Under the pieces are notes generated by a model that ran no database searches, was not told the DNA's origin, and saw only the letters and a list, made by a program, of their open reading frames with translations. From the NCBI GenBank assembly GCA_025358575.1, contig JANYJA010000070.1, forward strand, positions 1 to 64,000: 64,000 nucleotides of DNA. Reading direction: 5' to 3'. Made by a program: the position numbers and the translations under genes. Below are positions 7,153 to 56,936 of the stretch, in pieces (the stretch's first letter is position 1; each line of letters opens with the position of its first letter). This DNA comes from Terriglobia bacterium (GTDB lineage: Bacteria; Acidobacteriota; Terriglobia; Bryobacterales; Bryobacteraceae).

Positions 7153-7159
7153 CTCGAAT

Positions 7160-7621: not shown

Positions 7622-7646
7622 TAAGTTCCGGAGAGCCTAGCCTACT

Positions 7647-9044: not shown

Positions 9045-9052
9045 GGATCGGA

Positions 9053-10742: not shown

Positions 10743-10757
10743 GTGCGTGAGGGCATC

Positions 10758-10871: not shown

Positions 10872-10876
10872 CGAAT

Positions 10877-12409: not shown

Positions 12410-12458
12410 TGTGTGGAGGGCGCGCCCATCGCGCCCTGAACGCGAGGAAATTAAAATT

Positions 12459-13502: not shown

Positions 13503-13530
13503 TCGGGCTTCTTCACGCGAGATACTTCCC

Positions 13531-13971: not shown

Positions 13972-13974
13972 GCC

Positions 13975-14235: not shown

Positions 14236-14241
14236 ACGGAT

Positions 14242-31851: not shown

Positions 31852-33969
31852 ATGCAAACACGAAACGTTCCCACATCTTTCAAAACTCCGCGCCGATTTT
31901 CCCGCCTCCAACCGCGGGCGTGTCTTCGCGTCGGAGTTCTGTGCATGGCCCTTGCCGGCTCGCTAGGAGCCGCCAATAGCTATCTAGTGCACAACTTAGT
32001 TTCCGACCTTCCCAACACGGCGGACTACGTGGATCCGAATCTAGTAAATCCGTGGGGCATTGCCGAAAGTGCCACTGGCCCGTTTTGGCTAGGAAACAAT
32101 CACTCCGGCACGTCGACGCTTTATTCAGGTTCCGGTGCGCCAATCCCGCTCGTTGTGGCAGTTCCCCCTCCCGCCGGGGCAACGCCAGGTGCGGTTACAG
32201 GTGTGATCTACAACGGAAGCACTTCTTTTGCGGTAACGACCGGCAACCCCTCGGTTTTCATCTTCTGCACCGAAGATGGCACCATTTCCGGCTGGAATGC
32301 GACGGTGGATCGGACGCATGCCAAAATTGTAGTGGATAACTCGGCTTCAGGCTCTGTGTACAAAGGCTGTGCGCTAGGGGGCCCTACAGGGGCTCCGCAA
32401 ATCTACGTCGCTAATTTTCATGCGGGCACCATTGAAATTTTCGACGCGAATTTTAAACCCGTGGCATTGGCCTCTGGCGCATTCGCCGACCCTACGGTTC
32501 CCGCTGGATTTGCGCCATTTAATATCGAGAACATAGGCGGGAAGTTTTACGTAACGTACGGCAAGCAGGATAGCGCTAAGCACTATGATGTTGGCGGTGC
32601 GGGCAATGGGTATGTCACGGTGTTTGACGCGTCGGGCACCCTTGTCACCCATCTGATTGCAGCAGGGCCTCTGAATTCGCCCTGGGGAATGGCCATTGCG
32701 CCGGCTAACTTTGGCGATTTCGCGGGCGATCTGCTGGTCAGCAATTTCGGCGACGGCATGATTCACGCCTTCAACCCAACCACCGGGCAGTTGATTGGCA
32801 CTTTGAACGATACAACTGGAAAGCCGATAGTAGTTCGCGGAATCTGGGCGCTGCTCTTTGGCAACGGCGGCCGCGGCGGCGATGCGGGCACTCTCTATTT
32901 CACTGCCGGCTCACCCGGACCGAATGGAGAGCCGCTGGAAAGCCACGGGCTGTTCGGCAGTATTCAAGCCGCGCCATTCTTCACGATCAGCAGCTTGATT
33001 AATGCGGCCAGTTCTTCCAGCGTCCTGGCGGCAAATACGTGGGCTTCCGTTTTCGGCCAAGGCCTGTCTGCCTCTACTCACGCCTGGCAGGGGAGCGACT
33101 TCGTTAATGGTCAATTGCCAACACAGCTTACCGGCGTCGCTGTCTCTCTGAATGGCCAACCCGCGTACGTCAGCTATGTCAGTCCCGCGCAAATCAACTT
33201 TCTGGTTCCAGCCGACTTGCCCGCGGGCCCGGTGCAGGTTGTGACCACGAATAACGGTTTGACCAGCACCTCGGTAGCGGCCACATTTCAGACCACGGCA
33301 CCCTCCTTCTTCATGTTTCCGGGCAACAAGTATATTGCCGCCACGCATTCCGACGGCTTTTCGCTAACCGGGCCTCCCAGCTTAATTCCAGGCGCAACCA
33401 CCACGCCCGTGCTCCCAGGCGAAACGGTTGTCCTCTACGGCAACGGGTTCGGCGCGACCACTCCTGGGACGCCTAACGGGCAGATTATCAGCACGCCTTT
33501 GCCCTTGGCGACGCCCCCGACCTTGACTATCGGCGGGCTGCCTGCAACCATCACCTTCGCCGGACTTAGTGGAACCGGTCTCTATCAAATCAACGCGATT
33601 GTGCCCGCGGTGCCCACCAACGGCGCTATTCCGGTTGATGCAGCGGTTGTGGCGCAACTCCCGGGGGGTACTTCGCAGGCGAACGCGTTCCTGTCCGTAG
33701 TGTCACCTTCGGCGCCTCCAGCGGCTACCGCCGTGGACATCATAAATTTCTCGTTCGTGCCGACACCAGTCACCATAACTGCTGGCTCGTCGATCACGTG
33801 GACCAATCGAGATGGTGTGCAGCACACCGTCGTGGAGGATACCAACAAGTTCGCCTCCGATGGGTTAGATACAAGCGCGAAATTCACCCAAACGCTAAAT
33901 ACCCCGGGAACCTACACGTATCACTGCTCCATTCACCCCAATATGAAGGCGACGGTCATTGTGAAGTAG
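31852..33969 (+). CDS. Secreted beta-propeller, Soli_cterm and cupredoxin fusion
   Basis: A 705-residue exported protein in three parts. After a signal peptide (VGVLCMALAGSLGAA) comes a TIGR03118-type propeller-like domain (YLVHNLVSDLPNTADYVDPN, VNPWGIAESATGPFWLGNN). The middle third matches the Solibacter C-terminal domain TIGR03437 (NAASSSSVLAANTWASVFGQ, QPAYVSYVSPAQINFLVPAD). The last ~82 residues are a type-1 copper domain with ligands His658, Cys692, His695 and Met698 in QHTVVED and YHCSIHPNM, the amicyanin-like CxxHxxM loop. ATG 31852 has AAGG upstream. It precedes the decaheme cytochrome by 38 bases, so it could donate or take electrons from it. Confidence 0.85.
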   Translation: MQTRNVPTSFKTPRRFSRLQPRACLRVGVLCMALAGSLGAANSYLVHNLVSDLPNTADYVDPNLVNPWGIAESATGPFWLGNNHSGTSTLYSGSGAPIPLVVAVPPPAGATPGAVTGVIYNGSTSFAVTTGNPSVFIFCTEDGTISGWNATVDRTHAKIVVDNSASGSVYKGCALGGPTGAPQIYVANFHAGTIEIFDANFKPVALASGAFADPTVPAGFAPFNIENIGGKFYVTYGKQDSAKHYDVGGAGNGYVTVFDASGTLVTHLIAAGPLNSPWGMAIAPANFGDFAGDLLVSNFGDGMIHAFNPTTGQLIGTLNDTTGKPIVVRGIWALLFGNGGRGGDAGTLYFTAGSPGPNGEPLESHGLFGSIQAAPFFTISSLINAASSSSVLAANTWASVFGQGLSASTHAWQGSDFVNGQLPTQLTGVAVSLNGQPAYVSYVSPAQINFLVPADLPAGPVQVVTTNNGLTSTSVAATFQTTAPSFFMFPGNKYIAATHSDGFSLTGPPSLIPGATTTPVLPGETVVLYGNGFGATTPGTPNGQIISTPLPLATPPTLTIGGLPATITFAGLSGTGLYQINAIVPAVPTNGAIPVDAAVVAQLPGGTSQANAFLSVVSPSAPPAATAVDIINFSFVPTPVTITAGSSITWTNRDGVQHTVVEDTNKFASDGLDTSAKFTQTLNTPGTYTYHCSIHPNMKATVIVK

Positions 33970-34007
33970 CGCAAACGCGTTGACGTAAAATCGGGTTCGG
34001 ACTAAAA

Positions 34008-34916
34008 ATGAATCCGGCAATTCGGTTAAGCCTGATGCTGGTGGTTGTGACCTCGCTTGCGAGCGCACAATCACCAGCGCCCGATAAAGCGCCACCCAAA
34101 TTCGTCGGAAACACGGTGTGTAAGACCTGCCATCCCGATGTCTCCCTCAATTTCTACAAGAATCCGCATTACAAAAATAGCGCCGGATGCGAAGGCTGTC
34201 ACGGGCCGGGTGGCGCGCATGTGGAGTCACATGGGAACAAGACGCTCATCCGGGCTTATTCGCTGATGTCCCCGCCGCAGGTTCTTAATGCCTGCCTCAC
34301 TTGCCACTCGCGCGACATGCCCCGCGCGAACATCCGCCGGTCTTCTCACACCGAAGCCGACGTAGTCTGCACTTCGTGCCACTCGATCCACAAATCAGCC
34401 GTCCCGAAATTCTTACTTGCCAAGGTGCAACGAGACCTCTGTTATACCTGCCACACTACGGTGCGAGCCCAATTCGAAATGCCTTCCAAGCACCGGGTGA
34501 ATGAGGGCACCATCCAGTGCACCGACTGCCATAACCCCCACGGAACGTTCGCCGCCACCTGGCGAATGGGATCAAGGCCAATGGTAAATCAAGCGCTCAA
34601 TAATGAAGAGCCGTGCCTGGGCTGCCACTCCGACAAGCGCGGTCCGTTCACGTTTGAGCATGCCTCGGTGCGCGTCGATGGCTGCGAAACCTGTCACAGC
34701 GCGCATGGCTCCCCGAACGCCCGGCTGCTGCGGCGTCCCGTAGTGTTTACGCTGTGCCTGGAATGCCATAACGGCGCCGGAACTTTTGGGCGGCGGAATG
34801 ACGGCGTCCCGCTGCAGACGCCCAGCCATAACCTTCTCGATCCCCGCTACCAGCGCTGCACCGTCTGCCATGTCCGCATTCATGGCTCGAACAGCAATCA
34901 GTACTTTCTGAGATAG
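34008..34916 (+). CDS. Periplasmic decaheme c-type cytochrome, MtrA/DmsE type
   Basis: A 302-residue exported cytochrome. After the signal peptide (LSLMLVVVTSLASAQ) there are exactly ten CXXCH haem-binding motifs, at about residues 38, 61, 96, 121, 145, 171, 203, 226, 250 and 284. Number, spacing and length match the DmsE/MtrA family, which carries electrons through a barrel across the outer membrane. The next gene, two bases downstream, encodes such a barrel. A domain with HGPGGAHVESHG near residue 65-75 is typical of the family. Direction of electron flow and the substrate cannot be read from sequence. Confidence 0.88.
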   Translation: MNPAIRLSLMLVVVTSLASAQSPAPDKAPPKFVGNTVCKTCHPDVSLNFYKNPHYKNSAGCEGCHGPGGAHVESHGNKTLIRAYSLMSPPQVLNACLTCHSRDMPRANIRRSSHTEADVVCTSCHSIHKSAVPKFLLAKVQRDLCYTCHTTVRAQFEMPSKHRVNEGTIQCTDCHNPHGTFAATWRMGSRPMVNQALNNEEPCLGCHSDKRGPFTFEHASVRVDGCETCHSAHGSPNARLLRRPVVFTLCLECHNGAGTFGRRNDGVPLQTPSHNLLDPRYQRCTVCHVRIHGSNSNQYFLR

Positions 34917-34918
34917 CG

Positions 34919-36898
34919 ATGCGCGCGCTTATCTTAATTTGTGTCTCACTTTCTAGCGCGATGGCGCAACAAGTGGTCGCGCCTACTTCCGCCGACGTCG
35001 GCCCCCGTCGCGGCGAAAATATGGGTGACTACAACGTCGTGAATTCCTTCGAATTTGGCTACCGCTATAGCCTGATTGGCGGCGACCTTGGAAAATATCG
35101 AAGCGACGTCAACTACGGCAACGGCGTGCGGCTTTTAGCGAGCAGTCTCACCGTTAACTCGCGCGATGGCAAGGGCCGCATCTTCGATGAAATTGTTCTC
35201 ACTACCCTCGGCCTCGGCAATGACCCTTATCAATCCGCCGTACTTCGCGTCCAGAAGAATCGCCTCTACCGTTACGATCTGCTCTGGCGTTTGAATGAAT
35301 TCTACAATCCAGGGCTGACCATCGCCGCCGGACAGCACCTTATGGACACTCGCCGCCGGTGGCAGGATCACGACCTCACTTTGTTTCCTCAAAGCAAAGT
35401 CCGCCTGCGCGCGGGTTACAGCCGTAACACCGAAACCGGCCCAGCGCTTTCCACCATCCAGCTATTTGATGACCGCAGTGACGAGTTTCCTCTGTTCACA
35501 AATGTCCGCCGCGAGTTCAACGAGTACCGCGTCGGGGCCGATGTGGAGTTGCACCACTTCAAGCTCACGGTTCTGCGACGATGGGAGTTTTTCAAAGAGG
35601 ACACGCCCGTCAGCATCAACGGCGCGGAATCCGGCAACAATCCAAATGATCTCACCGTGCTGACCCAATTCCATCGCTCCGAGCCTTATCACGGCGAAAC
35701 TCCCAGCTGGCTCGTCAATCTATATACCGGTCGCCGCTACCTCGCCGTCAATGGACGTTTCACTTACTCCGGCGGACGCCGCAATTTCATCCAGGATGAA
35801 ACTGCCTTCGGCATCACGCGTCTGGGTGTGGCGGACAACCGGCAAACGCTGGTCTTTGGGGATGCGCGGCGGCCCGTCGTTACTGGCGATCTTGCGTTTT
35901 CAGTCCTCGCGACGGACAAGCTCACCATCACCAATAACACGTCGTTTCACAACACTAGGATTGACGGTAACTCCTCGTTCCAGCAGTTTGACAACTTCAC
36001 GCAAACTCGACACTTCATCAATTTTCAGTTTCTCGGCATTCGGCTGATTACTAATTCCACCGATGCGCAGTTGCGGCTGTCTCGCGGCCTGAGTCTGTTC
36101 GCGGGTTACCACTATTCCACGCGGCTGATTCGCTCGATCGAATTTGCCGGCCTGCCCCTGGCAAGCCAGACGAACCATCTCCACTCCGGCGTTGCGGGAG
36201 TGAACTGGAACCCCGTCAAGCCGCTTCGCGTTCATCTGGAGGGGGAGGTTGGCCGCAACGACCAGCCATTTACGCCAATTGCCGAACGCAATTACCACGC
36301 GTTATCAACCCGGGTGCAATATCGCGTTTCGAAGCTTCAGTTGTCGACGGGCTATCAGCAGCGCTACAACAACAATTCGATTTCGCTCACGGCGTTTGGC
36401 TCATGCGCGCGAAACTACTTTGCCGACGCGTCCTGGGCGCCCAACGGATGGTTTTCTTTTGACGCCGCTTACTCGCGGCTGCATCTCGACACGCTTGGGG
36501 GCATCGCGTTTTTCGCCGGGTTCGGTCGCGCTAATTTAGTCGGCAATCAACAATCGCTCTACCTCAGCAATATACATTCGACACACCTTGGCGCTCGCTT
36601 TGCACTTGGCAAACTCGCCGACTTGTATTTAGGATTCAGCCTGACTCGCGACACCGGCGATGGCCGTGCCACGGCGAGCCAGTCACCGAACCCGATTCAA
36701 AACGTGCTTACCGGTGTCCAGACTTTCCCGCTGAGTTTTGGAACGCCACTAGCGCGGCTGTCAGTTCGAATTAACGAGAAGCTTCGATGGAATGCCGGAT
36801 ACCAATTCTATCGATACCACGAATATTTTCATCTATTCAATTTCGACCAAAACTACCGGGCCAACACAGGATACACAAGTTTACTGTGGTCGTTCTGA
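34919..36898 (+). CDS. Outer-membrane beta-barrel, MtrB/PioB-like partner of the decaheme cytochrome
   Basis: A 659-residue protein with a signal peptide (LILICVSLSSAMAQ), long alternating hydrophobic/polar strands, many aromatic residues, and a C-terminal aromatic end (TSLLWSF), as in outer-membrane barrels. It starts two bases after the cytochrome stop, so both are made together. By analogy with MtrAB/PioAB it should sheath the decaheme. It lacks the N-terminal CxxC seen in Shewanella MtrB; the only mature-part cysteine I see is in GSCARN. The family call rests on context and general architecture, so it is less sure than the cytochrome. Confidence 0.68.
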   Translation: MRALILICVSLSSAMAQQVVAPTSADVGPRRGENMGDYNVVNSFEFGYRYSLIGGDLGKYRSDVNYGNGVRLLASSLTVNSRDGKGRIFDEIVLTTLGLGNDPYQSAVLRVQKNRLYRYDLLWRLNEFYNPGLTIAAGQHLMDTRRRWQDHDLTLFPQSKVRLRAGYSRNTETGPALSTIQLFDDRSDEFPLFTNVRREFNEYRVGADVELHHFKLTVLRRWEFFKEDTPVSINGAESGNNPNDLTVLTQFHRSEPYHGETPSWLVNLYTGRRYLAVNGRFTYSGGRRNFIQDETAFGITRLGVADNRQTLVFGDARRPVVTGDLAFSVLATDKLTITNNTSFHNTRIDGNSSFQQFDNFTQTRHFINFQFLGIRLITNSTDAQLRLSRGLSLFAGYHYSTRLIRSIEFAGLPLASQTNHLHSGVAGVNWNPVKPLRVHLEGEVGRNDQPFTPIAERNYHALSTRVQYRVSKLQLSTGYQQRYNNNSISLTAFGSCARNYFADASWAPNGWFSFDAAYSRLHLDTLGGIAFFAGFGRANLVGNQQSLYLSNIHSTHLGARFALGKLADLYLGFSLTRDTGDGRATASQSPNPIQNVLTGVQTFPLSFGTPLARLSVRINEKLRWNAGYQFYRYHEYFHLFNFDQNYRANTGYTSLLWSF

Positions 36899-36902: not shown

Positions 36903-38327
36903 CTAAGCAGCGTCCTTGCCGTACTCTTTCAGCTTGTTGTGCAGCGTCTTGAGACTGATACCCAAAATTTCCGCCGCACGGGTTTTATTATTCTTCGTAT
37001 GCTCCAGCGTCCTGAGAATCAGCCCTTTTTCAGCTTCTTCTACAGTCGTTCCAATGGGGACGTTCAAACTTTCTGGCGCACCCCCTGAACTCGGCATCGG
37101 CGATTCTGAACCCGCTGCCACTCCAACCGCCAACAGAGGGGCGGGCCTGGTTTGAAAATTAACTGGAAGTGCCGATATCGGCACCGTTCCCTCACCCGTA
37201 ATGATTACCGCGCGCTCCAGGGCGTTTCGAAGTTCGCGAATATTTCCCGGCCAACTGTGCCGCTGAAACGCCTCGACCACTTGCGGCGAAAGATCGCTCA
37301 CGCGCGTGTCGTGCTTCTTGTTTAAGTCTGATATCAGCGACTCGCAGATCGCCACAATGTCGTCTTTGCGATCCCGAAGGGGCGGCAAGTGAATGTGAAA
37401 TACGTTCAGCCGGTAGTACAAATCTTCGCGAAGACTCCCGCCTCGCACGGCGTCGTCCGGTACCTTATTCGTGGCCGCAACGACTCGCACATCGACTTCG
37501 AACTCGGTTTTCCCTCCCAGCCTTCGGACTTTGGAATCTTCCAGAATCCGCAACAGTTTCGCCTGCGTCAGCGCGGGCATTTCACCGATCTCATCCAGCA
37601 GCAGCGTTCCGTGCTGCGCCACCTCGAAACACCCAGCTCGCCGCTCCGAAGCGCCGGTGAAAGATCCCTTCTCATGCCCGAACAGTTCGCTTTCGATCAG
37701 CGTTTCCGGCAGCGCGGCGCAGTTGATCGCGACAAATGGTCCATTGTGACGCGGGCTCAACATGTGCAAAGTCCGCGCGACTAACTCCTTGCCGGTTCCG
37801 CTCTCGCCCGAAATTAGCACACACGCCTTGCTGGGCCCCGCTTGCTGCAGCAGTGCAAAAATCTCCTGCATGCGCGCGGAATTTCCCACCATCTCGCCCA
37901 AAGATCCCTTATAGGAGAGCTGCCGCTCAAGCGTCCGTTTTTCGCGTCCGAGCACGTTGTGAACAGCCGCGCGCCGCAGCAGCGCCTGCATCATCGCCGG
38001 CTGAACGGGTTTCTCGACGAACCAGTACGCGCCCATCTCATGCACCGCGCGGATGCCGGTCTCGACGCTGCCAAAACCGGTGACTACGATGGTCGGCGGC
38101 ATATCCCCGCGGTCGCGCAGGTTGCGAAGCAGCTCGTAACCGTCCATACGCGGCATGTTCAGGTCCGTTACGACCACGTCTGCGGGGTAGTGCTCCAGCT
38201 TCTCAAGCGCTTCTTCCCCGTTGCACGCGGTCTCGGCATTCATGCCCCAGGCCTTCACCATGCCAGCCAGACCAGTGCGCGATCCGCTTTCATCATCGAC
38301 AATTAGAATATTCAAAAGTTTGGCCAT
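36903..38327 (-). CDS. NtrC-family sigma-54-dependent response regulator
   Basis: A 474-residue regulator. The receiver domain (residues ~1-125) has the phospho-acceptor Asp55 (VVTDLNMPRMDG) and Lys in FVEKPV. The AAA+ domain has Walker A GESGTGKE (174-181) and the sigma-54 contact loop GSFTGA (221-226; the usual loop is GAFTGA, so A is replaced by S). A Fis-type helix-turn-helix ends it (NKTRAAEILGISLKTLHNKL). ATG 38327 is preferred. It is convergent with the barrel gene and no partner kinase is adjacent. Could control the neighbouring redox genes, but no sigma-54 promoter was seen there. Confidence 0.94.
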   Translation of the reverse strand: MAKLLNILIVDDESGSRTGLAGMVKAWGMNAETACNGEEALEKLEHYPADVVVTDLNMPRMDGYELLRNLRDRGDMPPTIVVTGFGSVETGIRAVHEMGAYWFVEKPVQPAMMQALLRRAAVHNVLGREKRTLERQLSYKGSLGEMVGNSARMQEIFALLQQAGPSKACVLISGESGTGKELVARTLHMLSPRHNGPFVAINCAALPETLIESELFGHEKGSFTGASERRAGCFEVAQHGTLLLDEIGEMPALTQAKLLRILEDSKVRRLGGKTEFEVDVRVVAATNKVPDDAVRGGSLREDLYYRLNVFHIHLPPLRDRKDDIVAICESLISDLNKKHDTRVSDLSPQVVEAFQRHSWPGNIRELRNALERAVIITGEGTVPISALPVNFQTRPAPLLAVGVAAGSESPMPSSGGAPESLNVPIGTTVEEAEKGLILRTLEHTKNNKTRAAEILGISLKTLHNKLKEYGKDAA

Positions 38328-38419
38328 GCGGAGCGATTCATCTCTTACAATCATATAAGCACCGAAGCAACCTGTCTCGCCTTCATCCCAGAGCTGTGAG
38401 ATTTTGCACCAGAAGCCTA

Positions 38420-40755: not shown

Positions 40756-43380
40756 CTAGTGCTCCGCAATCTGATCGTTAATGAGCTGCGCTCTCAGAAA
40801 ATTCGTAATGTCGGTCTGCTGGGCGATGGTTAACAACTTGAACGCCTGAATCGACGCAACTGCTTCCGAAAATCCCGGATTGTCCTGAATCGCAAGGCCA
40901 TATTGCAGTGTCGCTGCCGCGGGATTGCTGAACGACAGCGTTACGGTGGCGGAAGCACCCGGAAAAATGCTGCTCGTGATCTTCCAATAAGCTCCCTGCC
41001 GGAATGTCCCGTCAGGTCCCGCAGTGGCTCCCAGTGTTGCCTGGATCCCTGTCGTCATCGCACCCGTGAGCACCACTCGGATGGGTGCGTTAGCAGTTCC
41101 AGTGATAGTTTTAGTCGAAAGATTCTTCACCGTTACCTTCTGCGTGCTCGTGCCGCTGGAGTTAGTCTGCGGCCCCAGAGTCACGTTGATGGACGAGGGA
41201 TATGTTCCCTCATGCGCCAGAATCGCCGCCAACAGGTTCGATCCGGCGGAGCCATCCCGCAGGAAAGGGTATACCGAACCGGCATCCCAAACTTCGGCAG
41301 TTTTGATGGTATCCGTGCCGCTGCTTTTGTCCAGCGCTCCGAGTTTGTGCAGCTTCACATCGCCGAACAGGCGTAGTCCAGGTTGACCCACCGTCTGCGC
41401 GAGTCCGTCAGAGACGTCCTGCGCGTCCGCCGTGTGGAAAGGAACCTGGATCGAGAGCGCTGAATTGGTCTGCGGGTTTTTCACTTGAAATGTCGTCCCT
41501 CCCGGAAATGCGTAAAAGACGCGATGGCAAGAATTGCAGTAGACCCCGCCGTTGTCTACTGAATTTCGGAAAAGCGTCTCCCCGTTTTGCACCGATTGCT
41601 GGGTGACACCTAGGGTATTCATCATGGCGGGCGAAGCTGGATTCGGTACTGCCAATGACATTAGAAAAACCGTCTCCGCCGTAGTCTCCCCCACGCTCTG
41701 CTCGTTCGCTACTCCGTCGTGGTCCGGGTCGTCCACCGCATCGTAGCCGCCCGGATTCCCAAGCAGATTAGCGACTTTTTCAGATGTCTGTATTCCGAAA
41801 TGATCGTCGGATGCCCCACTTATGGCGCCGCGGATAGTTGGAAAACTTCCCAGCGATCCATGCGGATTGGTCAGCCCGGGAACGCCCGCTGCCTTTAACT
41901 GAGTAACCATCAGTTCTTCGGCGCCGCCGCCCCACATGGACGCAGGGTGCAGTGTCGATTGCGAAAAAAGCGCCCTGGCGGCCCCTCCCGCATTCGGCTG
42001 CGAGTGGCACGACAGGCAGTTTGTCACCGATTTCTGATCCGCTCCCTCCTCCGGGTCCCATACCAGCTCGAAAAGCGCTCGCCCAACTAACGAGAGCCGG
42101 TCCTGATAGGAGTGTGTTCCAGTCGGCGCCCAGTCCGATGTCAGAAGTCCGGCTTTAATGAGGGATGTGAAGTTTGCCTCGATCGCCGAGGGCAGCAACG
42201 GCGGATTGTTGTTCAAGAACGAATTATCCAGGTCTTGTTGATCAATCCGCACAAACGGGCCGGTCGAATTCGGGCCCGAGGTCTTGACCTGGAATGGATT
42301 GGTCAGCAAAAGCGGGATTACGTTTCCTTGAGCGGTCGGCGTGACCAGAGGGAAATTCGTCGTATTCGGCGGCGGAGGCGGTGTTGTCCCTCCCGCCATT
42401 ATCGTGCTGATGAAAAACGAGCGTGCCGGCCGGAACGGTGTAGCCGCGACGTCAAAGGGAAACTTCTGCGTGTTGAACAACCCGCCAGAATCCGTGAGGT
42501 ACGTCATCACGCCTTCAATCGGCACCGACGCCCCGTTTACCGCCGTCACCGGCCCGCTAATGCGAATTCCCGATGACTTGATCGGAAAGCCGCTGCTTGC
42601 CACCTGCGCTACAGATTTAAACTGCGACACGTTCGTTCCCGTCGGCACATTCACAGACCAAATTTCCCAAATTGGACTGAAGAAGGTGGCCCCCGGGGCC
42701 GCTGCCGCCACTAACTGCGGCGCACCTTGCACCGCTCCGGTCGGGTCGACGAACTTGAACATGATTTGCGGGTTGAAAGGACCGTCGCCCACATCGAAAG
42801 GCACAATCGTCACTGTCTGGGCGTTGAAGAAAACCTGCATCGGAGCACTGCTCCCCGCCGGATTCGTGGAACCGCTGGCTACCACGGGCGCGTACAGGAA
42901 GATGTTCGTCCGGTAATCGTTTACCACCAGAGTCGAACTCGCCACCTTCGCCCCGGAATCGATACGGGTGCTCAAATTGTTGGGATCGTATGAGGGTGAA
43001 ACGGTAACGGCATGCACGGCCCAATTGGCGCTGAACTGTCGTGGCACCAACGCGGAAATTCCTGAAGCCACCCCGTTCGGTACTGCTTCGATTACGGCTG
43101 GCTGGTTTACGGGCTGGCCCGTGGCCGAATTGAATAGAATCCACATGTCCGCGTGGCGGTCGCCGTCTGACTCCACCTGACCGTTTACGCGAGCCGGGAA
43201 TCGCATGTTCATCGGATTGCCGTTATAATAGACCGTGAAATCGGCCAGATTCGTGGCCGCGCCCACCGATTCCAGGCGTGGATCGCCGATAGGAGGAGTA
43301 GCGACCTGCGGCACTCCGTTCTGAAGCTGGGCCTGCGTGAGCCCGCAAATCACAATGAACAGCCATCCAACGCGCTTCAT
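40756..43380 (-). CDS. Large secreted diheme c-type cytochrome, DUF1111/oxidoreductase-like
   Basis: An 874-residue exported protein. After the signal peptide (VGWLFIVICGLTQAQ) comes a ~400-residue N-terminal part rich in beta-strand-like sequence and proline (TTPPPPPN), then a haem domain with two CXXCH sites: CLSCH at 455-459 and CNSCH at 615-619. DPDHDGVANEQSVGETTA (551-568) resembles a calcium loop and the di-haem oxidoreductase family pattern. The last ~170 residues look like an Ig-like domain. Likely a periplasmic or surface electron carrier or peroxidase. Its TATACT at 43406-43401 may be a -10. Divergent from the RND operon. Confidence 0.72.
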   Translation of the reverse strand: MKRVGWLFIVICGLTQAQLQNGVPQVATPPIGDPRLESVGAATNLADFTVYYNGNPMNMRFPARVNGQVESDGDRHADMWILFNSATGQPVNQPAVIEAVPNGVASGISALVPRQFSANWAVHAVTVSPSYDPNNLSTRIDSGAKVASSTLVVNDYRTNIFLYAPVVASGSTNPAGSSAPMQVFFNAQTVTIVPFDVGDGPFNPQIMFKFVDPTGAVQGAPQLVAAAAPGATFFSPIWEIWSVNVPTGTNVSQFKSVAQVASSGFPIKSSGIRISGPVTAVNGASVPIEGVMTYLTDSGGLFNTQKFPFDVAATPFRPARSFFISTIMAGGTTPPPPPNTTNFPLVTPTAQGNVIPLLLTNPFQVKTSGPNSTGPFVRIDQQDLDNSFLNNNPPLLPSAIEANFTSLIKAGLLTSDWAPTGTHSYQDRLSLVGRALFELVWDPEEGADQKSVTNCLSCHSQPNAGGAARALFSQSTLHPASMWGGGAEELMVTQLKAAGVPGLTNPHGSLGSFPTIRGAISGASDDHFGIQTSEKVANLLGNPGGYDAVDDPDHDGVANEQSVGETTAETVFLMSLAVPNPASPAMMNTLGVTQQSVQNGETLFRNSVDNGGVYCNSCHRVFYAFPGGTTFQVKNPQTNSALSIQVPFHTADAQDVSDGLAQTVGQPGLRLFGDVKLHKLGALDKSSGTDTIKTAEVWDAGSVYPFLRDGSAGSNLLAAILAHEGTYPSSINVTLGPQTNSSGTSTQKVTVKNLSTKTITGTANAPIRVVLTGAMTTGIQATLGATAGPDGTFRQGAYWKITSSIFPGASATVTLSFSNPAAATLQYGLAIQDNPGFSEAVASIQAFKLLTIAQQTDITNFLRAQLINDQIAEH

Positions 43381-43580: not shown

Positions 43581-46500
43581 ATGTGGATTGTCCGCCTAGC
43601 GCTGCACCGCCCGTATACCTTCGTCGTAATGGCCGTCTTGATCGTTATTCTCGGAATCGGCGCGATTGTGACGATGCCTACGGACATTTTCCCGAATATA
43701 GACATCCCTATAGTCAGTGTCATCTGGGCGTACAACGGCATCTCGCCCGATGAAATGGCGCAGCGTATTGTCACCATCTCAGAACGCGCCATGACCACGA
43801 CGGTCAATGACATCGAACACATAGAGTCCACTTCATATAGCGGGGTCGCCGTGATCAAGGTGTTCTTCCAATCCAATGCTAAGGTCGAACTCGCTATTGC
43901 TCAAATCACCGCGATTAGTCAGACTGTCTTACGCGCGCTTCCACCCGGCATTTTTCCACCCGCCGTCATCAAATACAACGCCTCGAGCGTTCCAATACTG
44001 CAGCTCGCGGTCGATAGCCGCACGCTCACCGAGCAACAGCTCTTCGATTTCGGCCTCAACTTCATCCGTACGCAGCTGGCGACCGTGCAAGGCGCTTCAG
44101 TTCCACTTCCTTACGGAGGCAAGCAGCGTCAGATCATGGTCGATCTCAACCCCGAGGCACTGTACGCGAATCACCTCTCGGCGACCGACATTTCCAACGC
44201 AATCAACGCCCAGAATCTGATTCTGCCCGCCGGCACGGCTAAGATCGGCGACCGTGAGTATCTTGTGCGGCTTAACTCAAGCCCTTCGGTGGTGTCAGCC
44301 CTCAACGATTTCCCCGTCCACACCTCCAATGGCGTAACCGTCTACGTGAAAGACGTCGCTCAGGTCCGCGATGGTTTTTCGGTGCAAACCAACATCGTTC
44401 GCCAGAATGGCCGCCGCTCCACCCTGCTTACCATCCTCAAGAACGGCAGCGCCTCCACGCTCGATATCGTCAAAAAGGTTAAACAAGCTCTGCCGCGCAT
44501 TCTCGCCGGTCTTCCGACAAGCCTCAACATTCGTGAAGTAGTGGATCAGTCTGTCTTCGTGCGGGCCGCCATCTCCGGCGTATTGCGCGAAGGCATCACT
44601 GCCGCGGTCCTCACCGGCTTGATGATCTTGTTGTTCCTGGGAAGCTGGCGCAGCACTGTCATCGTGTGCGTCTCCATCCCGCTCTCGATCCTGACGTCCA
44701 TTATCATTCTCGATGCATGGGGTCAAACCATCAACGTGATGACCCTGGGCGGTCTGGCGCTCGCCGTTGGAATCCTGGTGGACGACGCCACTGTCGAAAT
44801 CGAGAACGTCCACCGAAATATGGGTCAGAAGAAGCCCATCACGCGCGCCATTCTGGATGGCGCGCAGCAGATCGCCGTTCCCGCCTTCGTGTCCACACTG
44901 GCAATCTGTATCGTTTTCGTCCCGGTGCTACTGCTCACCGGCGCCGCTAAGTATTTGTTTACGCCGCTTGCCATGGCCGTCGTGTTCGCCATGCTGACCT
45001 CTTATTTGCTCTCGCGAACTCTGGTTCCCACCATGGTTCATTACCTCTTAAAATCCGAGATCGCCCTCTATGCCGCCGGCGAGGACGGTCATGAAGCCCA
45101 AAGCAGCGGCATCATTTGGCACGTCCACCATTCGTTCAACCGCTATTTCGAGAAGGGCCGCAAACAGTATAAAGGCGCTCTGAAGTGGTCTTTGGATCAT
45201 CGCGGCGCGGTCGCCATTTTGTTCGGCGTTTTCTGCGCCGGCTCATTCTGCCTCACGTTTCTCATCGGCGAAGACTTCTTCCCTTATATCGACTCGGGCC
45301 AGATGCGTCTCCACGTCCGCACGCCCGAGGGCACGCGCATTGAGGAGACCGAGCGCATCTTCGGCCAAGTCGAGGATGAGATCCGCACGCTTATTCCGCC
45401 ACGGGAGATGGAAAACATCATCGACAACATCGGCCTTCCCGCAGGCGGCATCAATCTTGCCTTTAGCGATAGCGCCACCATTGGATCCGGCGATGGCGAG
45501 ATCCTTATTTCTCTTAATCAGGAAAAACATGGACCCACCCAGGCCTACCAGCGCAAGCTTCGCGGCGATTTGCGCGCCAAATTCCCCGATCTCACTTTCT
45601 TTTTCCAGCCGGCTAACATCACCAACCAGATCCTGAATTTCGGCCTCCCTGCCCCTATCGATATTCAGATTGTCGGCCGTGATGCCGTGGGCGGATTCCG
45701 CATGGCGCAGGAGATTGAGCGCCGCGTTTCTCTCATCCCCGGTGCCGCCGACGTCCACGTTCACCAACAGGTGGCTTATCCCGAGATCCGCGTTAACGTG
45801 GATCGGACCAAGGCCGGCCAAGTCGGCCTAACCCAGCGAGATGTCGCCAACAGCGTTCTCATCTCTCTGAGTTCCAGCGGGCAGACCGCGCCCAATCAGT
45901 GGCTAAATCCCACCAATGGCGTAAGCTATAACGTCGCCGTGCAAACCCCCCAGATCCGTATCGATTCCTTCGATGCTCTGCGGCACACACCTCTCACCTC
46001 ATCCGGCGGCGGCCCAACGCAGCTTTTGAGCAACCTGGCCTCCCTCTCGCGCGGCAGTTCCACGGTGATCGTCAATCACTACAACGTCCAACCCACTTTC
46101 GACGTTTACGCCAACATCGATGAGCGCGACCTGGGCGGAGTAGCCACCGAAGTCCGAAAGGTCATGAACGATATTGCGCCGCGGCTTCCCCGCGGGATGT
46201 CTCTGGAACTTCGCGGTCAGGTCGAAACCATGCGCGCCTCATTTGTTCGTCTCGGCATCGGGATGTTTTTCGCGATCGCACTGGTCTACTTGCTGATTGT
46301 TCTAAACTTCCAGTCGTGGCTGGATCCGTTCATCATCTTAATGGCCCTGCCGGGCGCTCTCTCTGGTATTCTTTGGATGCTGTTCATCACGCAGACCACG
46401 CTCAATGTGCCCTCCCTCATGGGGGCAATCATGTGTATCGGGGTCGCGACCGCCAACAGCATTCTAGTCGTCACCTTCGCCAACGATGAGCGCGCTTCCG

Positions 46501-46808
46501 GCATGGATTCCATCGAAGCCGCCCTCTCCGCCGGATACACCCGCATTCGCCCCGTGACCATGACTGCCCTCGCCATGATCATCGGCATGCTACCCATGGC
46601 TCTAGGCTTTGGCGAAGGCGGCGAGCAGAACGCTCCGCTGGGCCGCTCCGTTATCGGCGGCCTGCTGGTCGCCACTGTCACTACTCTCTTTTTCGTGCCC
46701 ATCATGTACAGTTACTTGCGCAAGAATCCTCCGCAAGATATGGATGTTCTGATCGAAGAGGAAGAACACGAGGGTCTGCCGCCTGACGCGTTACCGCAGC
46801 GCTCTTGA
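43581..46808 (+). CDS. RND efflux permease, first system
   Basis: A 1075-residue inner-membrane proton/drug antiporter subunit of the AcrB type. It opens RLALHRPYTFVVMAVLIVIL with FPNIDIPIVSVIW, and the fourth transmembrane helix carries the paired acid residues LVDDATVEIENVHRN. Two periplasmic domains and twelve helices are apparent from the repeated pattern (e.g. LMILLFLGSWRSTVIVCVSI, SLMGAIMCIGVATANSILVV). It heads an operon permease-adaptor-TolC. Promoter region 43381-43580 contains ACCCG-TTG-CGGGT and AAAGTT-N4-AACTTT repeats. Substrate unknown. Confidence 0.93.
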   Translation: MWIVRLALHRPYTFVVMAVLIVILGIGAIVTMPTDIFPNIDIPIVSVIWAYNGISPDEMAQRIVTISERAMTTTVNDIEHIESTSYSGVAVIKVFFQSNAKVELAIAQITAISQTVLRALPPGIFPPAVIKYNASSVPILQLAVDSRTLTEQQLFDFGLNFIRTQLATVQGASVPLPYGGKQRQIMVDLNPEALYANHLSATDISNAINAQNLILPAGTAKIGDREYLVRLNSSPSVVSALNDFPVHTSNGVTVYVKDVAQVRDGFSVQTNIVRQNGRRSTLLTILKNGSASTLDIVKKVKQALPRILAGLPTSLNIREVVDQSVFVRAAISGVLREGITAAVLTGLMILLFLGSWRSTVIVCVSIPLSILTSIIILDAWGQTINVMTLGGLALAVGILVDDATVEIENVHRNMGQKKPITRAILDGAQQIAVPAFVSTLAICIVFVPVLLLTGAAKYLFTPLAMAVVFAMLTSYLLSRTLVPTMVHYLLKSEIALYAAGEDGHEAQSSGIIWHVHHSFNRYFEKGRKQYKGALKWSLDHRGAVAILFGVFCAGSFCLTFLIGEDFFPYIDSGQMRLHVRTPEGTRIEETERIFGQVEDEIRTLIPPREMENIIDNIGLPAGGINLAFSDSATIGSGDGEILISLNQEKHGPTQAYQRKLRGDLRAKFPDLTFFFQPANITNQILNFGLPAPIDIQIVGRDAVGGFRMAQEIERRVSLIPGAADVHVHQQVAYPEIRVNVDRTKAGQVGLTQRDVANSVLISLSSSGQTAPNQWLNPTNGVSYNVAVQTPQIRIDSFDALRHTPLTSSGGGPTQLLSNLASLSRGSSTVIVNHYNVQPTFDVYANIDERDLGGVATEVRKVMNDIAPRLPRGMSLELRGQVETMRASFVRLGIGMFFAIALVYLLIVLNFQSWLDPFIILMALPGALSGILWMLFITQTTLNVPSLMGAIMCIGVATANSILVVTFANDERASGMDSIEAALSAGYTRIRPVTMTALAMIIGMLPMALGFGEGGEQNAPLGRSVIGGLLVATVTTLFFVPIMYSYLRKNPPQDMDVLIEEEEHEGLPPDALPQRS

Positions 46809-46827
46809 GGAAACCATCCCAATATCC

Positions 46828-48234
46828 ATGAACGAAACTCTCGGCGCTCCTGAAACGACCAAACTTCTGGCGGCGGGCCACGATCAAAAGCCGCTCGGCG
46901 ATCCCGCGCACGCGGCGCCCGTGCCACGCGGCCGTGTGGTGATCATCGGTATTCTGCTGTTGCTCGTGCTGGGAGCCATGTTTCTCGCGGGTTATTTGCC
47001 TCGCCTCAAGCGCCAGAGCGGAATCAATCGTGAGGCTCAGGACGAAGAAGCAAGCCTGCCGATCGTGAATGTGGTGACCGTGAAGCGCTCCGCTTCAAAT
47101 AGTGAGTTGCAGCTACCCGGCAACGTGACCCCCCTTACCGAAGCCTTTATTTACGCCCGCGCTTCTGGATATGTGAAGCGCCGCTATGTGGATATCGGCG
47201 ACCGCGTGACCGCAGGTCAGGTGCTTGCCGTCATTGAAGCTCCCGATCTGGATCAGCAGGTTTCGCAAGCACGCGCCAGCGTTGCTCAAGCGCGGGCAAG
47301 CGTAGGCCAGGCGCAAGCCGCGCTGGCGCAAACTCAATCCCAGTTGCGCCTCACGTCCATCACGCTAAAGCGCTGGCAGACACTTGTTTCCCGTGGCGTC
47401 CTCGCGCAACAGGAAGGCGATCAGAAGCAAGCCGACTACGATAACGCCCAGGCCAACGTTCACGCCAGCGAGGCTAACGTCAAAGCCTCTCAGGAAGCTG
47501 TTCGCGCTTCCGAAGCCAACGTCAATCGCTTGCTTGAACTCCAGAGCTTTAAGCAGATTCGGGCACCCTTCGCAGGTGTCATTACGGCGCGCAACGTGGA
47601 TGTGGGCGCACTCATTTCCGCCACCGGCACAAGCCAAGGCGGCAACACCGGGTCTTCCGCCGCGGGGTCACAGAGCGGCGAAATGTTTCGAATAGCGCAA
47701 ATCGCTATTTTGCGCGTGATGATTAACGTCCCGCAGAGCGATACAGCGGGCGTTCGCCTGGGCCAACCAGCCTACGCCACCGTCGCCGAGTACCCTGGCC
47801 GCAAGTTCCCTGGAAAGGTCACCCGAAGTTCCAATTCGTTCGACCCAGCATCGCGCACTTTGCTCACCGAAGTTCAGGTTGCGAATCCCAATCGAGTTCT
47901 GCTTCCGGGAATGTACGCGCAGGTGCTGTTCGACAACGCCCGCGCAAATCCTCCGCTGATCGTCCCGGGAGATAGTATTGTGGTTCACGCAAATGGGGCT
48001 CAGGCCGCCGTGCTCGCAGCTAGCAACAAGGTACATTTCCAGCCCGTCACTGTTGGCCGTGATTTCGGGACGGACACCGAGATTATTTCCGGTCTAAACA
48101 ACGGCGATGTCGTAATTGTGAATCCCAGTGACGACGTGCGTGAAGGCGCGCGGGTGAAGCCGGTACGTTCCGCTCCAATCAAAACCTCCCCGGGTTCCGC
48201 ACCCAACCCGCCCAGCCGAAAGGCCGCGAATTAG
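46828..48234 (+). CDS. RND periplasmic adaptor, first system
   Basis: A 468-residue membrane-fusion protein linking permease to outer-membrane channel. One N-terminal membrane segment (VVIIGILLLLVLGAMFLAGY), lipoyl halves (GYVKRRYVDIGDRVTAGQVL and FKQIRAPFAGVITARNVDVG), and a long alpha-hairpin with repeated heptads (SQARASVAQARASVGQAQAA, and a second set ANVHASEANVKASQEAV) are seen. It starts 19 bases after the permease and is followed two bases later by TolC. A Ser/Pro/Lys-rich tail ends it. Confidence 0.92.
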   Translation: MNETLGAPETTKLLAAGHDQKPLGDPAHAAPVPRGRVVIIGILLLLVLGAMFLAGYLPRLKRQSGINREAQDEEASLPIVNVVTVKRSASNSELQLPGNVTPLTEAFIYARASGYVKRRYVDIGDRVTAGQVLAVIEAPDLDQQVSQARASVAQARASVGQAQAALAQTQSQLRLTSITLKRWQTLVSRGVLAQQEGDQKQADYDNAQANVHASEANVKASQEAVRASEANVNRLLELQSFKQIRAPFAGVITARNVDVGALISATGTSQGGNTGSSAAGSQSGEMFRIAQIAILRVMINVPQSDTAGVRLGQPAYATVAEYPGRKFPGKVTRSSNSFDPASRTLLTEVQVANPNRVLLPGMYAQVLFDNARANPPLIVPGDSIVVHANGAQAAVLAASNKVHFQPVTVGRDFGTDTEIISGLNNGDVVIVNPSDDVREGARVKPVRSAPIKTSPGSAPNPPSRKAAN

Positions 48235-48236
48235 GA

Positions 48237-50180
48237 ATGCTTACTTTATGGGTGCGTTCCCTGCTCGCGCTCGGGACTGCCGCGCTCCTTTCGGCCCAGC
48301 AGATCCCCCACGCGCGCATCACGCAAATGCCGGAAGTTTCAAGCGCCCACGCAACCGGCTTCGATCGCTTCATTAATCCCTATCGCGCGCCTTTGGTCTC
48401 TCTGGTTGATTTCCGGAACTCCGATCGCATTTACAGTTTGATCCGCGGCGGACAACTTTATCTCACGCTACAAGACGCCATCGCCCTGGCTCTTGAAAAC
48501 AGTCTCGATGTTGAATTGCAGCGCTTTGGTCTTCGCATCGCTGAATCCGACCTGTTACGCGCCAGAGGAGGAGGCCTACTACGCGGTGTTCCGCTCACCG
48601 TTCGTGAGCTTCCCACCGGAGTCGGTGGCCCCGGCAGTCCGCTTCTAACGACAGTCGGCGGCATCACACCTGTTACGTCGATTCCCGCTGCCACGTCCGA
48701 CCTCGCGCCTATCACCGGTCAGACCACCGATCTCAGCATCCTTGGCGCAGCGCCCCTCGCGACAGGCCCGCGCATCCCGGGTTTCGATCCCGCCATCATC
48801 GGCCAGCTCAATGCGGGGCATACCAGCACACCTCAGACAAACCAAATCGTCTCCGGCACGAACCAGCTCAAAAATGGCAGTTTCTTTGGAAACGCCGGTT
48901 TGGTCCAGGGTTTCTCCACCGGTGCGTCCTACAACCTTGGCTTTAACGCCAATCGCCAGACCACCAACAGCACGCGCAGCAGTTATAACCCCTACACCAC
49001 CGGCAGCCTCGGCCTCAACGTGTCGCAGCCCCTGCTGCAGGGCTTCGGGACCGCGGTCAATCGCCGGTTTATCACCATCGCCGGCAACAACGTGCGCATC
49101 ACTGATTATGTTTTTCGGCAACAAATAATCGACACTCTGTCTTCAGTGATTCGGCTCTACTGGGATCTGGTCAGTCTCGAGGAAGACGTGAGTGTGAAGC
49201 GGCGCTCGTTCGCACTCGCTCAGAAACTTTACGAAGACAATAAGACGCAGGTAGAAGTTGGCACACTCGCGCCCATTGAAGTGAAGCGGGCCATGGCAGA
49301 GGTAGCGCGCGGACGTCAGGACATCGTCAATGCGGAAAGCCTGCTGCTGCAACAGGAGCTGATTCTGAAGAACGTGCTCACGCGACGTGGAACACTAGAT
49401 GCGCTTGTCAGCGACGCCCGCATTGTTCCAACGGATCACATTGCCATTCCCGCGCAGGAGGCCGTACGTCCGGTAGCGGACTTAGTCTCCGAGGCATTCC
49501 GAAATCGTCCCGACCTGAGCCAAGCCCATCTGCAAATCGAGAATTCGCGGATCAGCTTGAAAGGTTCGCGCAACGCCTTACTTCCAGAGCTTGACCTCGT
49601 CGGCAATCTGCAGAACAACGCGCTCGCGGGGCAAGCCACCGCGATCCCGGGTGTAACCCCCGACCCTGTGCTGATTGGCGGTCCGGGCACTTTTCTTTCA
49701 CAAATCGCCAGCCGAAGTTTTCCCAATTACTCGATTGGGCTTCAGCTCAATATCCCGATTCGCAATCGAACGGCGCAAGCCGACGTCATTCGCGATGAGT
49801 TGCAACTGCGCCAGAGCCAGGTGCGTGAGCAGCAACTTGAAAATCAGGTGCGCCTTGAAGTGGAAAATGCGCAACTCATCATGGCTCGTTCTCGTGCCGC
49901 CTACGATGCTGCCGTGGAAACGCGCCAGTTGCAGGAAGAAGCTCTGGACGCCGAACAGGAGCGCTTCGGCGTCGGCGCCTCGACGACTTACGTCGTAATC
50001 CAATATCAGCGCGACCTGGCGCAAGCGAGGTCCACCGAGGTGGTTACGGCCGGCAACTACGCAAAATCCAAAGCCGCGTTAGATCGCGCGACTGGCGAGA
50101 CACTCATCAACAACAACGTCGCCGTGGAAGAAGCTTACCAAGGCACCGTCGCTCGCCCCTCGGCGATTCCGGCTCACTGA
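48237..50180 (+). CDS. TolC-family outer-membrane channel, first system
   Basis: A 647-residue exported channel protein. The signal is at the start (LWVRSLLALGTAALLSAQ). LYLTLQDAIALALENSLDVE begins the outer-membrane efflux domain, and two repeated helical parts follow (AYQ-like FALAQKLYEDNKTQVEVGTL and VREQQLENQVRLEVENAQ). It is longer than usual because of an insertion of about 120 residues rich in Thr/Gly/Pro between residues 105 and 230 (GGPGSPLLTTVGGITPVTSI), probably a surface or periplasmic loop. Starts two bases after the adaptor stop. Confidence 0.9.
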   Translation: MLTLWVRSLLALGTAALLSAQQIPHARITQMPEVSSAHATGFDRFINPYRAPLVSLVDFRNSDRIYSLIRGGQLYLTLQDAIALALENSLDVELQRFGLRIAESDLLRARGGGLLRGVPLTVRELPTGVGGPGSPLLTTVGGITPVTSIPAATSDLAPITGQTTDLSILGAAPLATGPRIPGFDPAIIGQLNAGHTSTPQTNQIVSGTNQLKNGSFFGNAGLVQGFSTGASYNLGFNANRQTTNSTRSSYNPYTTGSLGLNVSQPLLQGFGTAVNRRFITIAGNNVRITDYVFRQQIIDTLSSVIRLYWDLVSLEEDVSVKRRSFALAQKLYEDNKTQVEVGTLAPIEVKRAMAEVARGRQDIVNAESLLLQQELILKNVLTRRGTLDALVSDARIVPTDHIAIPAQEAVRPVADLVSEAFRNRPDLSQAHLQIENSRISLKGSRNALLPELDLVGNLQNNALAGQATAIPGVTPDPVLIGGPGTFLSQIASRSFPNYSIGLQLNIPIRNRTAQADVIRDELQLRQSQVREQQLENQVRLEVENAQLIMARSRAAYDAAVETRQLQEEALDAEQERFGVGASTTYVVIQYQRDLAQARSTEVVTAGNYAKSKAALDRATGETLINNNVAVEEAYQGTVARPSAIPAH

Positions 50181-50255
50181 GGCCGGAGCGCAACTACATG
50201 CGTCCCTGGGCGCGTTGACATATCCAGGCTCCCTCCGCTACCGTTGAATTTGAAG

Positions 50256-50570
50256 ATGTCTCCCCGCTTGGCCCCTACTTGGCTTCGTCATGCTTTCATC
50301 GGAGTGTTGATGATCGCCGTGATTCTGTTGGGCGCTGCGGCAAAGCGAAGCCAATATTCGAGGGTCCTAGGCGCTACTAGTCACCTCTCCAAATTGGTGA
50401 AGATGAGCGAGTCCCGCATCGATTTTCACGGCGCCGAAATCGGCGTGCTCCATCGACCCGCCACCGTCCTCGAATTTGGCGTCGCATTTATTCCCGCAAC
50501 TCCACCGCGCTTCTTTTCACAGTCGGTCATCACCCCTGTCGCGCTGCTTTCCGCGCCGCTCCGCGTCTGA
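50256..50570 (+). CDS. Small hypothetical protein with one membrane segment
   Basis: A 104-residue frame from ATG 50256: MSPRLAPTWLRHAFIGVLMI with a hydrophobic stretch (FIGVLMIAVILLGAAA), then a polar part. A TTGACA at 50215-50220 with TACCGT 18 bases downstream may be a promoter for it and the second RND operon. No family is recognised and the last third looks like noise. It sits between two efflux operons. Confidence 0.4.
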   Translation: MSPRLAPTWLRHAFIGVLMIAVILLGAAAKRSQYSRVLGATSHLSKLVKMSESRIDFHGAEIGVLHRPATVLEFGVAFIPATPPRFFSQSVITPVALLSAPLRV

Positions 50571-50627
50571 TCCCTTATGCTTTCCGCTGAACATTGTCCT
50601 CAGTCTTGAAGAAGGAGTGTATCTATC

Positions 50628-51848
50628 TTGTCTCGTGCCCTTTTATATGCCGCTCTCGCCAGCGGTGTTTTGTTCATTTCAGCCTGCTCGCATTCGGAAA
50701 ACATAGAGGCCCGATCGGGTCCCCCCAGAGCTCAAATCGTCGCCGTCGTCAAAACCGAACCTGAATCTCTGGCGCGGCGCACCGTGCTCTCCGCTGAGTT
50801 TCGCCCCTATCAGGAAGTCGAGATCCACGCCAAGGTCGCCGGTTATGTAAAGCGCATCTACGTCGATATCGGGGATCGCGTGAAGCAGGGCCAAGTGCTG
50901 GCCACGCTCGAAATTCCAGAGATGACGAATGACTTAACGCGCGCCGCCGCCGCCCGCGAGCACAGCAGTTCCGAGGTCCAGCGTGCACGCGACGGCGTCT
51001 TGCGCGCCGAGTCCGCTCATGAAGCCGCCCACCTCTCCTATCAGCGCCTTTCGGCGGTAAGTAAACAGCGCCCCAATCTTGTCGCTCAGCAGGAACTGGA
51101 CGACGCCGAAGCCCGGGACCGAGTCTCCGAAGCTTCCGTCGCCGAAGCCAAGTCGGGTCTCGCTTCCGCGCAGCAGCAAGTGCAGGTGTCCACGGCCGAT
51201 GAAGACAAGACCAAAACGCTTTTCGATTACTCCCGCATCACGGCACCTTTCGCCGGAGTAATCAGCAAGCGTTTCGCGGACACCGGCTCTATGATTCAGG
51301 CCGGCACCGCTTCGCAAACCCAAGCCATGCCGGTCGTGCGACTCTCGCAAATCGACCGTCTTCGCCTCGTACTTCAGATTCCCGAATCCGTTGTCCCTCA
51401 CATCCGCATCGGAGAACCGGTCGATGTTCGCGTCCCCACGCTCAACCGCACCTTCACCGGAACCGTCAGCCGCTTTTCGGATCGCGTCGCCCCCGCAACG
51501 CGCACCATGGAAACCGAAGTTGACGTGTTCAATCCTGGATTCGTTCTCATTCCCGGCATGTATGCCGAAGCTGTCCTCACACTTGAAAAACATGACAATG
51601 CTCTCGCCGTCCCTGTCCAATCCATCGTGACGCGTGACGGGATCGCCACGGTCATGCTGGTCGGTTCGAATCACCGGTTGGAACAACGGTCGATCAAGAC
51701 CGGCATTGAAACCGCCGAGAAAGTGGAGGTTCTCTCTGGTCTGCATGCCGGCGATCAGGTGGTCATCGGCAATCGCAGCCAGTTGAAGAGCGGCGAAGAA
51801 GTGGAGACCAAGTTGGTCGCCACCCGCATGCCAGGAGGCGATCGGTAA
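50628..51848 (+). CDS. RND periplasmic adaptor lipoprotein, second system
   Basis: A 406-residue adaptor. Start TTG 50628 follows AAGGAG by about 14 bases. The signal ends in a lipobox (LFISAC), so it is likely lipid-anchored, unlike the first adaptor. Lipoyl motif GYVKRIYVDIGDRVKQGQVL, the hairpin region and APFAGVISKRFADTGSMIQ follow. Ends in a one-base overlap with the permease start (TAATG). Second tripartite efflux operon: adaptor-permease-TolC. Confidence 0.92.
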   Translation: MSRALLYAALASGVLFISACSHSENIEARSGPPRAQIVAVVKTEPESLARRTVLSAEFRPYQEVEIHAKVAGYVKRIYVDIGDRVKQGQVLATLEIPEMTNDLTRAAAAREHSSSEVQRARDGVLRAESAHEAAHLSYQRLSAVSKQRPNLVAQQELDDAEARDRVSEASVAEAKSGLASAQQQVQVSTADEDKTKTLFDYSRITAPFAGVISKRFADTGSMIQAGTASQTQAMPVVRLSQIDRLRLVLQIPESVVPHIRIGEPVDVRVPTLNRTFTGTVSRFSDRVAPATRTMETEVDVFNPGFVLIPGMYAEAVLTLEKHDNALAVPVQSIVTRDGIATVMLVGSNHRLEQRSIKTGIETAEKVEVLSGLHAGDQVVIGNRSQLKSGEEVETKLVATRMPGGDR

Positions 51849-56232: not shown

Positions 56233-56327
56233 ACCGAGTTTTAGGCCGTACTTGACGGATGCGCGCGGGATTTACGATCAGTGGCATGGACGCCTCCGTT
56301 TCAAGCCGTCCCACATGCAACTCGCGA

Positions 56328-56935: not shown

Positions 56936-56936
56936 G

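Follow-up and report, generated by a model that had tools for sequence, protein, structure and literature searches.

Described porin-cytochrome systems related to the locus

In the MtrAB crystal structure, the MtrB barrel has 26 strands, the first four shorter than the others, and a helix lying between strands 1 and 2 serves as a cap; haem 10 is exposed when MtrC is absent, and reduction of soluble Fe(III) chelates persists in MtrC mutants (PMC7198977). In Geobacter, GSU2203 (OmcK) and GSU2204 both rise with hematite and magnetite (PMC4070692). Among Acidobacteriota, the MtrCAB systems of Bryobacterales form Group 5 of Baker et al. 2022 (PMC8805035), and PioA/MtoA homologues were reported from Acidobacteriia in 2023 (PMC10654088). 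A 2013 study put forward the decahaem MtrA/DmsE cytochromes found in Solibacter and Terriglobus as indicators of Fe reduction; the portion of that work dealing with them treats the cytochromes only and describes no partner barrel, clade or neighbourhood (PMC3669403).

The gene pair analysed here shares with the Shewanella MtrAB core (PDB 6r2q) a decahaem MtrA homologue with all ligands and a predicted MtrB fold of 26 strands with a helix cap. Unlike Shewanella MtrCAB, it belongs to a genome without MtrC and without CymA/NapC, and its barrel lies outside TIGR03509 and PF11854 and has no CXXC. The Bryobacterales MtrCAB (system II below) comes from the same bacterial group and has a homologous barrel and cytochrome, but it carries MtrC upstream and usually a tetrahaem cytochrome downstream, and its cytochrome belongs to a separate clade. 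The likeness to GSU2203/GSU2204 consists of a decahaem gene and the neighbouring family: the sole library match of the barrel is a weak one to NF041027 (GSU2204 family, E=1.6e-4). Both proteins fall far below the curated cut-offs, however, with 20.6 against 350 bits for the barrel and 202 against 325 bits for the cytochrome (NF041028, GSU2203 family). PioAB and MtoAB of Fe(II) oxidisers are likewise MtrAB homologues without MtrC, but no HiPIP, MtoD or CymA is found beside the pair in the window; no HiPIP gene (pioC) was recognised among the ORFs of the 26-46 kb neighbourhood. In a limited search of the open-access literature, we found no description of an MtrC-less pair with a divergent barrel or of its prevalence. 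The type of machine is known; new is a divergent version that is missed by the standard barrel models and is present in most relatives examined.

Location and gene structure

The window, the whole stretch of 64,000 nucleotides that was analysed, is contig C29 of a 4.77-Mb draft genome (95.6% complete) whose nearest named relatives are Bryobacterales/Solibacteraceae MAGs. A neighbouring protein has the Solibacter C-terminal domain, and the host is accordingly read as belonging to this acidobacterial group, probably to the Bryobacteraceae. The pair and its downstream neighbour are as follows.

34008..34916, plus strand: mtrA-like gene, 302-aa periplasmic decahaem c-type cytochrome (DmsE/MtrA family) with signal peptide; stop codon at 34914-34916
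34919..36898, plus strand: mtrB-like gene, 659-aa predicted outer-membrane beta-barrel; ATG at 34919
36903..38354, minus strand: sigma-54-dependent response regulator (PF00158, PF00072, HTH_8), convergent with mtrB; any link to the pair would be putative

The ORF map of the window places two bases between the mtrA stop and the mtrB ATG, the spacing given in the preliminary description, and the N-termini of both products are signal-peptide-like in sequence. A promoter-like site (33980-34009) overlaps the mtrA start codon, and such sites are in only mild excess (6 vs 2.6 in shuffled sequence), too little to define the operon structure. Antisense ORFs drawn over mtrA in some ORF maps (cluster c11) were rejected as spurious.

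The decahaem cytochrome

Ten CXXCH motifs are present in the 302 residues of the mtrA-like product (residues 38, 61, 96, 121, 145, 171, 203, 226, 250 and 284). When the residues were shuffled 10,000 times, the mean was 0.08 motifs and ten were never reached, so the motif count first reported is confirmed as far beyond chance. The match to MtrA/DmsE proposed at the same time was borne out by an HMM search, in which TIGR03508 (DmsE family decahaem) scored 253.4 bits against a curated cut-off of 192.2 over model positions 1-257 of 258. The cytochrome also aligns to crystallised Shewanella MtrA (PDB 6r2q_A) with E=2e-33 by phmmer. Across 28 orthologues, the ten CXXCH motifs with their proximal His never vary, and precisely ten other His are likewise constant; judged from the alignment, these twenty His are predicted to supply complete bis-His ligation for ten haems. 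Nine of the ten distal His are also kept in four outgroups, the exception being H274. The AlphaFold model of the cytochrome has a poor second half (mean pLDDT 59) and is too weak to use, as might be expected when the haems are left out of the model.

The barrel

Profile evidence had been sought for both partners, and it was obtained for the cytochrome (TIGR03508, above its cut-off) and not for the barrel. A profile search of Pfam, including PF11854, gave no match to the barrel; TIGR03509 did not match it either and was negative in its own genome, while other barrels of relatives score above the TIGR03509 cut-off. A barrel profile built from 38 orthologues found nothing among the PDB sequences.

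An AlphaFold model of the barrel was obtained with the alignment of these 38 orthologues (pLDDT 78.5, pTM 0.71). We counted 26 strands in the model, with short strands near the N terminus. DSSP of the model assigns a helix at the site of the channel-capping helix of MtrB:

35087..35107, plus strand: predicted helix, residues 57-63, in the loop joining strand 1 to strand 2

Foldseek ranked Shewanella MtrB (6r2q_B) first (E=1e-15, TM 0.66/0.67); the runners-up among the matches listed are TonB receptors and OprC with TM of 0.46 or less. Structure prediction thus returned a 26-stranded barrel with MtrB as the best PDB match, where a missing barrel fold would have counted against the preliminary description. 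By predicted structure the protein has the MtrB fold, and by sequence it lies outside TIGR03509/PF11854. Its only Cys residues are C8, in the signal peptide, and C496; the N-terminal CXXC that is a feature of Shewanella MtrB is absent, as had been noted. The C-terminus (...LLWSF) ends in Phe, a residue that would be typical of outer-membrane barrels.

Pairing, distribution and ancestry

We examined 121 genomes, that of the window and 120 related Acidobacteriota. Strong barrel matches (down to E ~1e-76) were found in 75 of them (77 rows), and a TIGR03508 cytochrome lies directly upstream on the same strand in 73 of the 77 barrel rows, with a median gap of 48 bases. Among the four unpaired rows, one barrel begins at a contig end (G038) and one lies 562 bases from a contig end (G016); the other two (G003 and G005) are apparent contig splits, and a cytochrome adjoining a further barrel piece is found elsewhere in both genomes. 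Relatives thus keep the cytochrome and the barrel together, and the case of a cytochrome without a barrel, which had been named as an argument against the pair, did not appear. The pairing and the fold ranking largely rule out a TonB receptor or ordinary porin as the identity of the barrel. In a phylum-wide sample, the barrel profile matched 92 of 396 genomes, many only partly.

A tree of 70 cytochromes has three groups whose main splits are highly supported. The first group comprises the cytochrome of the window and its orthologues in further families of the class; the other groups contain the MtrC-linked cytochromes and the cytochromes of canonical TIGR03509-type systems. The cytochromes of two MtrC-bearing loci (L135 and L136) fall beside the window's group. 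Branching inside the latter broadly follows taxonomy, which suggests mainly vertical descent of the group. As best explained, the barrel is part of a divergent branch of the MtrAB family that has been passed on mainly by vertical descent in Acidobacteriota.

Three predicted conduits and the distribution of MtrC

The MtrC-less pair of the window, with its own cytochrome clade apart from that of MtrCAB (system II), is referred to as system I. No match to OmcA/MtrC (TIGR03507) was found anywhere in the window genome (95.6% complete); the surface decahaem protein described earlier as absent is therefore missing from the genome searched, not only from the locus. In the set of 121 genomes, MtrC scored above the TIGR03507 cut-off in 62, and for 48 of the 65 MtrC rows compared a same-strand MtrA lies no more than 600 bases away. 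The usual order of system II is MtrC-MtrA-MtrB-tetrahaem. Gene order and host, rather than identical accessions, match it to Group 5. Its barrel aligns with that of the window at 100% in hhalign (E=1.6e-58) at an identity of only ~25%; the window genome gave no barrel match other than its own system-I barrel. In system III, the barrel is detected by TIGR03509, often with a sensor and a sigma-54 regulator upstream, and its profile matches the window barrel weakly (57%, E=1e-4).

At least 42 of the 75 system-I genomes also carry MtrC and 33 are without it, among the matches listed. The occurrence of MtrC-less and MtrC-bearing conduits in the same genomes offers a natural test of what MtrC adds. 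Among the matches listed, only one system-I barrel has MtrC within 10 kb (L104, G066:C584). At positions 2858-8361 of that contig, a 10-haem MtrC (TIGR03507, 498 bits) lies directly downstream of the barrel; an MtrC beside a usually MtrC-less barrel type is a natural experiment on the outside partner. In two other genomes (L116 and L117; G099 and G107), a 5-haem MtrA-like cytochrome gene directly follows mtrB, and two membrane-protein-like ORFs (~540 and ~490 aa) are found farther on.

Neighbouring genes in relatives

The preliminary description had suggested looking in close genomes for a conserved third gene. Neighbourhoods were compared at 39 named loci with 8-kb flanks, some of them cut by contig ends. 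A propeller protein (c5) is present at 14 of the 39 loci, a small OmpA-like barrel (c3) at 17, a membrane protein of ~103 aa (c4) at 18 and the Tad pilus gene CpaF at 12; a frequent order is Tad-c5-c3-MtrA-MtrB-c4. In ten loci (L045, L046, L052, L055, L057, L064, L065, L071, L073 and L074), Tad pilus genes, a propeller gene (~1010 aa) and an OmpA-like barrel gene (~213 aa) precede MtrAB. Searched genome-wide, the c5 and c3 genes adjoin each other even well away from MtrAB and where system I is missing. Neither c3 nor a full c5 is present in the window genome, whose CpaF homologue sits on another contig. As candidates for the third gene, c3, c4, c5 and CpaF were rejected; none is invariant, and the c5/c3 module occurs independently of system I. 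Since c5, c3 and CpaF flank some loci, occur independently and are not found beside the window pair, the MtrA-MtrB pair is the only constant unit. A regulatory cassette is found near MtrAB in three genomes at differing position or orientation (L103, L111 and L112 in G006, G065 and G035); it is composed of an OmpR-type regulator, a receiver-only protein, a ~450-aa protein without Pfam match, a ~235-aa protein and a dCache histidine kinase.

In farther Acidobacteriota, pairs with a related barrel are accompanied by respiratory genes. One (L121) lies beside a monohaem cytochrome c and a NapC-type cytochrome, three (L147, L150 and L153) lie beside predicted Rieske-like and cytochrome b-like genes, and three more (L154, L156 and L159) have MtrC beside the pair. 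These neighbours support a role in electron transfer. At L150 (G407:C20, positions 4202-14915), two MtrA-MtrB pairs of different classes follow one another on one strand; a 5-haem gene lies upstream of them, and the genes downstream are monohaem, 6-haem, Rieske-like and cytochrome b-like.

The upstream propeller-cupredoxin gene

A gene in the same direction ends 38 bp before mtrA.

31891..33969, plus strand: propeller-cupredoxin gene, 692 aa with a putative start at 31891 (the longest ORF begins at 31816), secreted-looking product
33721..33966, plus strand: cupredoxin domain (PF00127 E=6e-8; TIGR02657 E=1.5e-9)

The product has a TIGR03118 propeller-like domain, a Solibacter C-terminal domain and a C-terminal cupredoxin. 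Read from the sequence, the type-1 copper ligands are complete (H645, C679, H682 and M685), with a CxxHxxM loop as in amicyanin. Homologues in relatives mostly match up to ~residue 608, without the copper domain, and are found on other contigs. The exception is G006, in which a homologue of the TIGR03118 gene lies ~5 kb from the pair; the cytochrome of this genome is the nearest tree neighbour of that of the window, with modest support. We consider the propeller-cupredoxin protein a candidate outside partner of low probability. In that improbable case, the outside half of the conduit in this lineage would be a secreted type-1 copper protein in place of a multihaem cytochrome; bound to the barrel, it would exchange electrons with the outermost haem in a haem-to-copper conduit.

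Proposed mechanism and direction of electron flow

The two genes very probably encode an MtrAB-type porin-cytochrome conduit. This reading, also that of the preliminary description, is supported by the TIGR03508 match, the conserved motifs and ligands, the predicted MtrB fold and the pairing in 73 of 77 rows, as well as by the hhalign match of the system-I barrel to a barrel that stands beside a true MtrC. The failure of PF11854 and TIGR03509 to detect the barrel, its lack of CXXC and the poor model of the cytochrome count against it. The decahaem cytochrome would be exported, acquire ten bis-histidine-ligated haems and sit within the 26-stranded barrel, so that the haem chain of the cytochrome would span the outer membrane. 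The probable source of the electrons is periplasmic c-type cytochromes that alternative complex III supplies. From the outermost haem they may pass to Fe(III) in soluble or chelated form, to humic quinones or to a secreted protein. No match to the NapC/NirT/CymA family (PF03264) was found in the window genome, which has an alternative complex III-like cluster (pentahaem, iron-sulphur and NrfD-type subunits) beside cytochrome oxidase genes. It also encodes at least four other multihaem proteins, each with 7-8 motifs. On these grounds, electrons could pass in either direction between MtrA and the periplasmic cytochromes. The cluster (L161, G000:C202) is a likely electron exchange partner of MtrA via periplasmic cytochromes, but an alternative complex III beside an oxidase also suits plain aerobic respiration.

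Cupredoxins are known from iron oxidisers, and the copper protein gene 38 bp upstream of mtrA recalls them. It is one of the observations that favour running the same conduit inward, in the manner of MtoAB/PioAB, with Fe(II), Mn(II) or reduced humics being oxidised outside the cell and electrons feeding periplasmic c-type cytochromes and the oxidase; the lack of CymA and the oxidase genes adjoining alternative complex III are others. The MtrC-less MtrAB homologues with an assigned function, PioAB and MtoAB, also run inward (PMC8805035, PMC10654088). The nearest characterised neighbours of the barrel in the same bacteria are MtrC-bearing, however, although MtrC alone does not fix direction, and neither HiPIP nor MtoD is encoded beside the pair. 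Inward flow is a real but less probable possibility, and outward flow is somewhat more likely.

Two further explanations would give the pair a different role. The cytochrome model TIGR03508 is named for the DmsE family, and a DmsEF-like conduit would act for an enzyme outside the cell or on its surface, the arrangement of extracellular DMSO respiration, and not for minerals or humics. No DMSO reductase genes were recognised among the translated ORFs near the pair, nor any molybdopterin reductase among the translated neighbours in the window (those of relatives are partly annotated), and we regard such a function as very unlikely. No more credible is a chance neighbourhood of a periplasmic multihaem cytochrome and an ordinary TonB-type or general porin. 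The barrel has no Pfam family and TonB receptors appear in its Foldseek list, but MtrB ranks first by a wide margin, the two genes stay paired in relatives, and the barrel has profile homology to that of MtrCAB.

Acidobacteriota, the Bryobacteraceae among them, are abundant in soils, where they mostly count as aerobic heterotrophs. Should the pair function as an MtrAB conduit, an extracellular electron route would be present in most of the examined family, one that surveys using MtrC, TIGR03509 or PF11854 would miss. Such genes could then matter for iron and humic redox cycling.

Other genes in the window

On the minus strand at 40756-43380, an 874-aa protein with two CXXCH motifs shows weak CCP_MauG similarity and is a possible dihaem oxidoreductase. 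Positions 43581-57235 hold two predicted RND-type efflux gene sets in tandem, with the putative large transporters at 43581-46808 and 51848-54970 and adaptor-like and outer-membrane-like genes around them.
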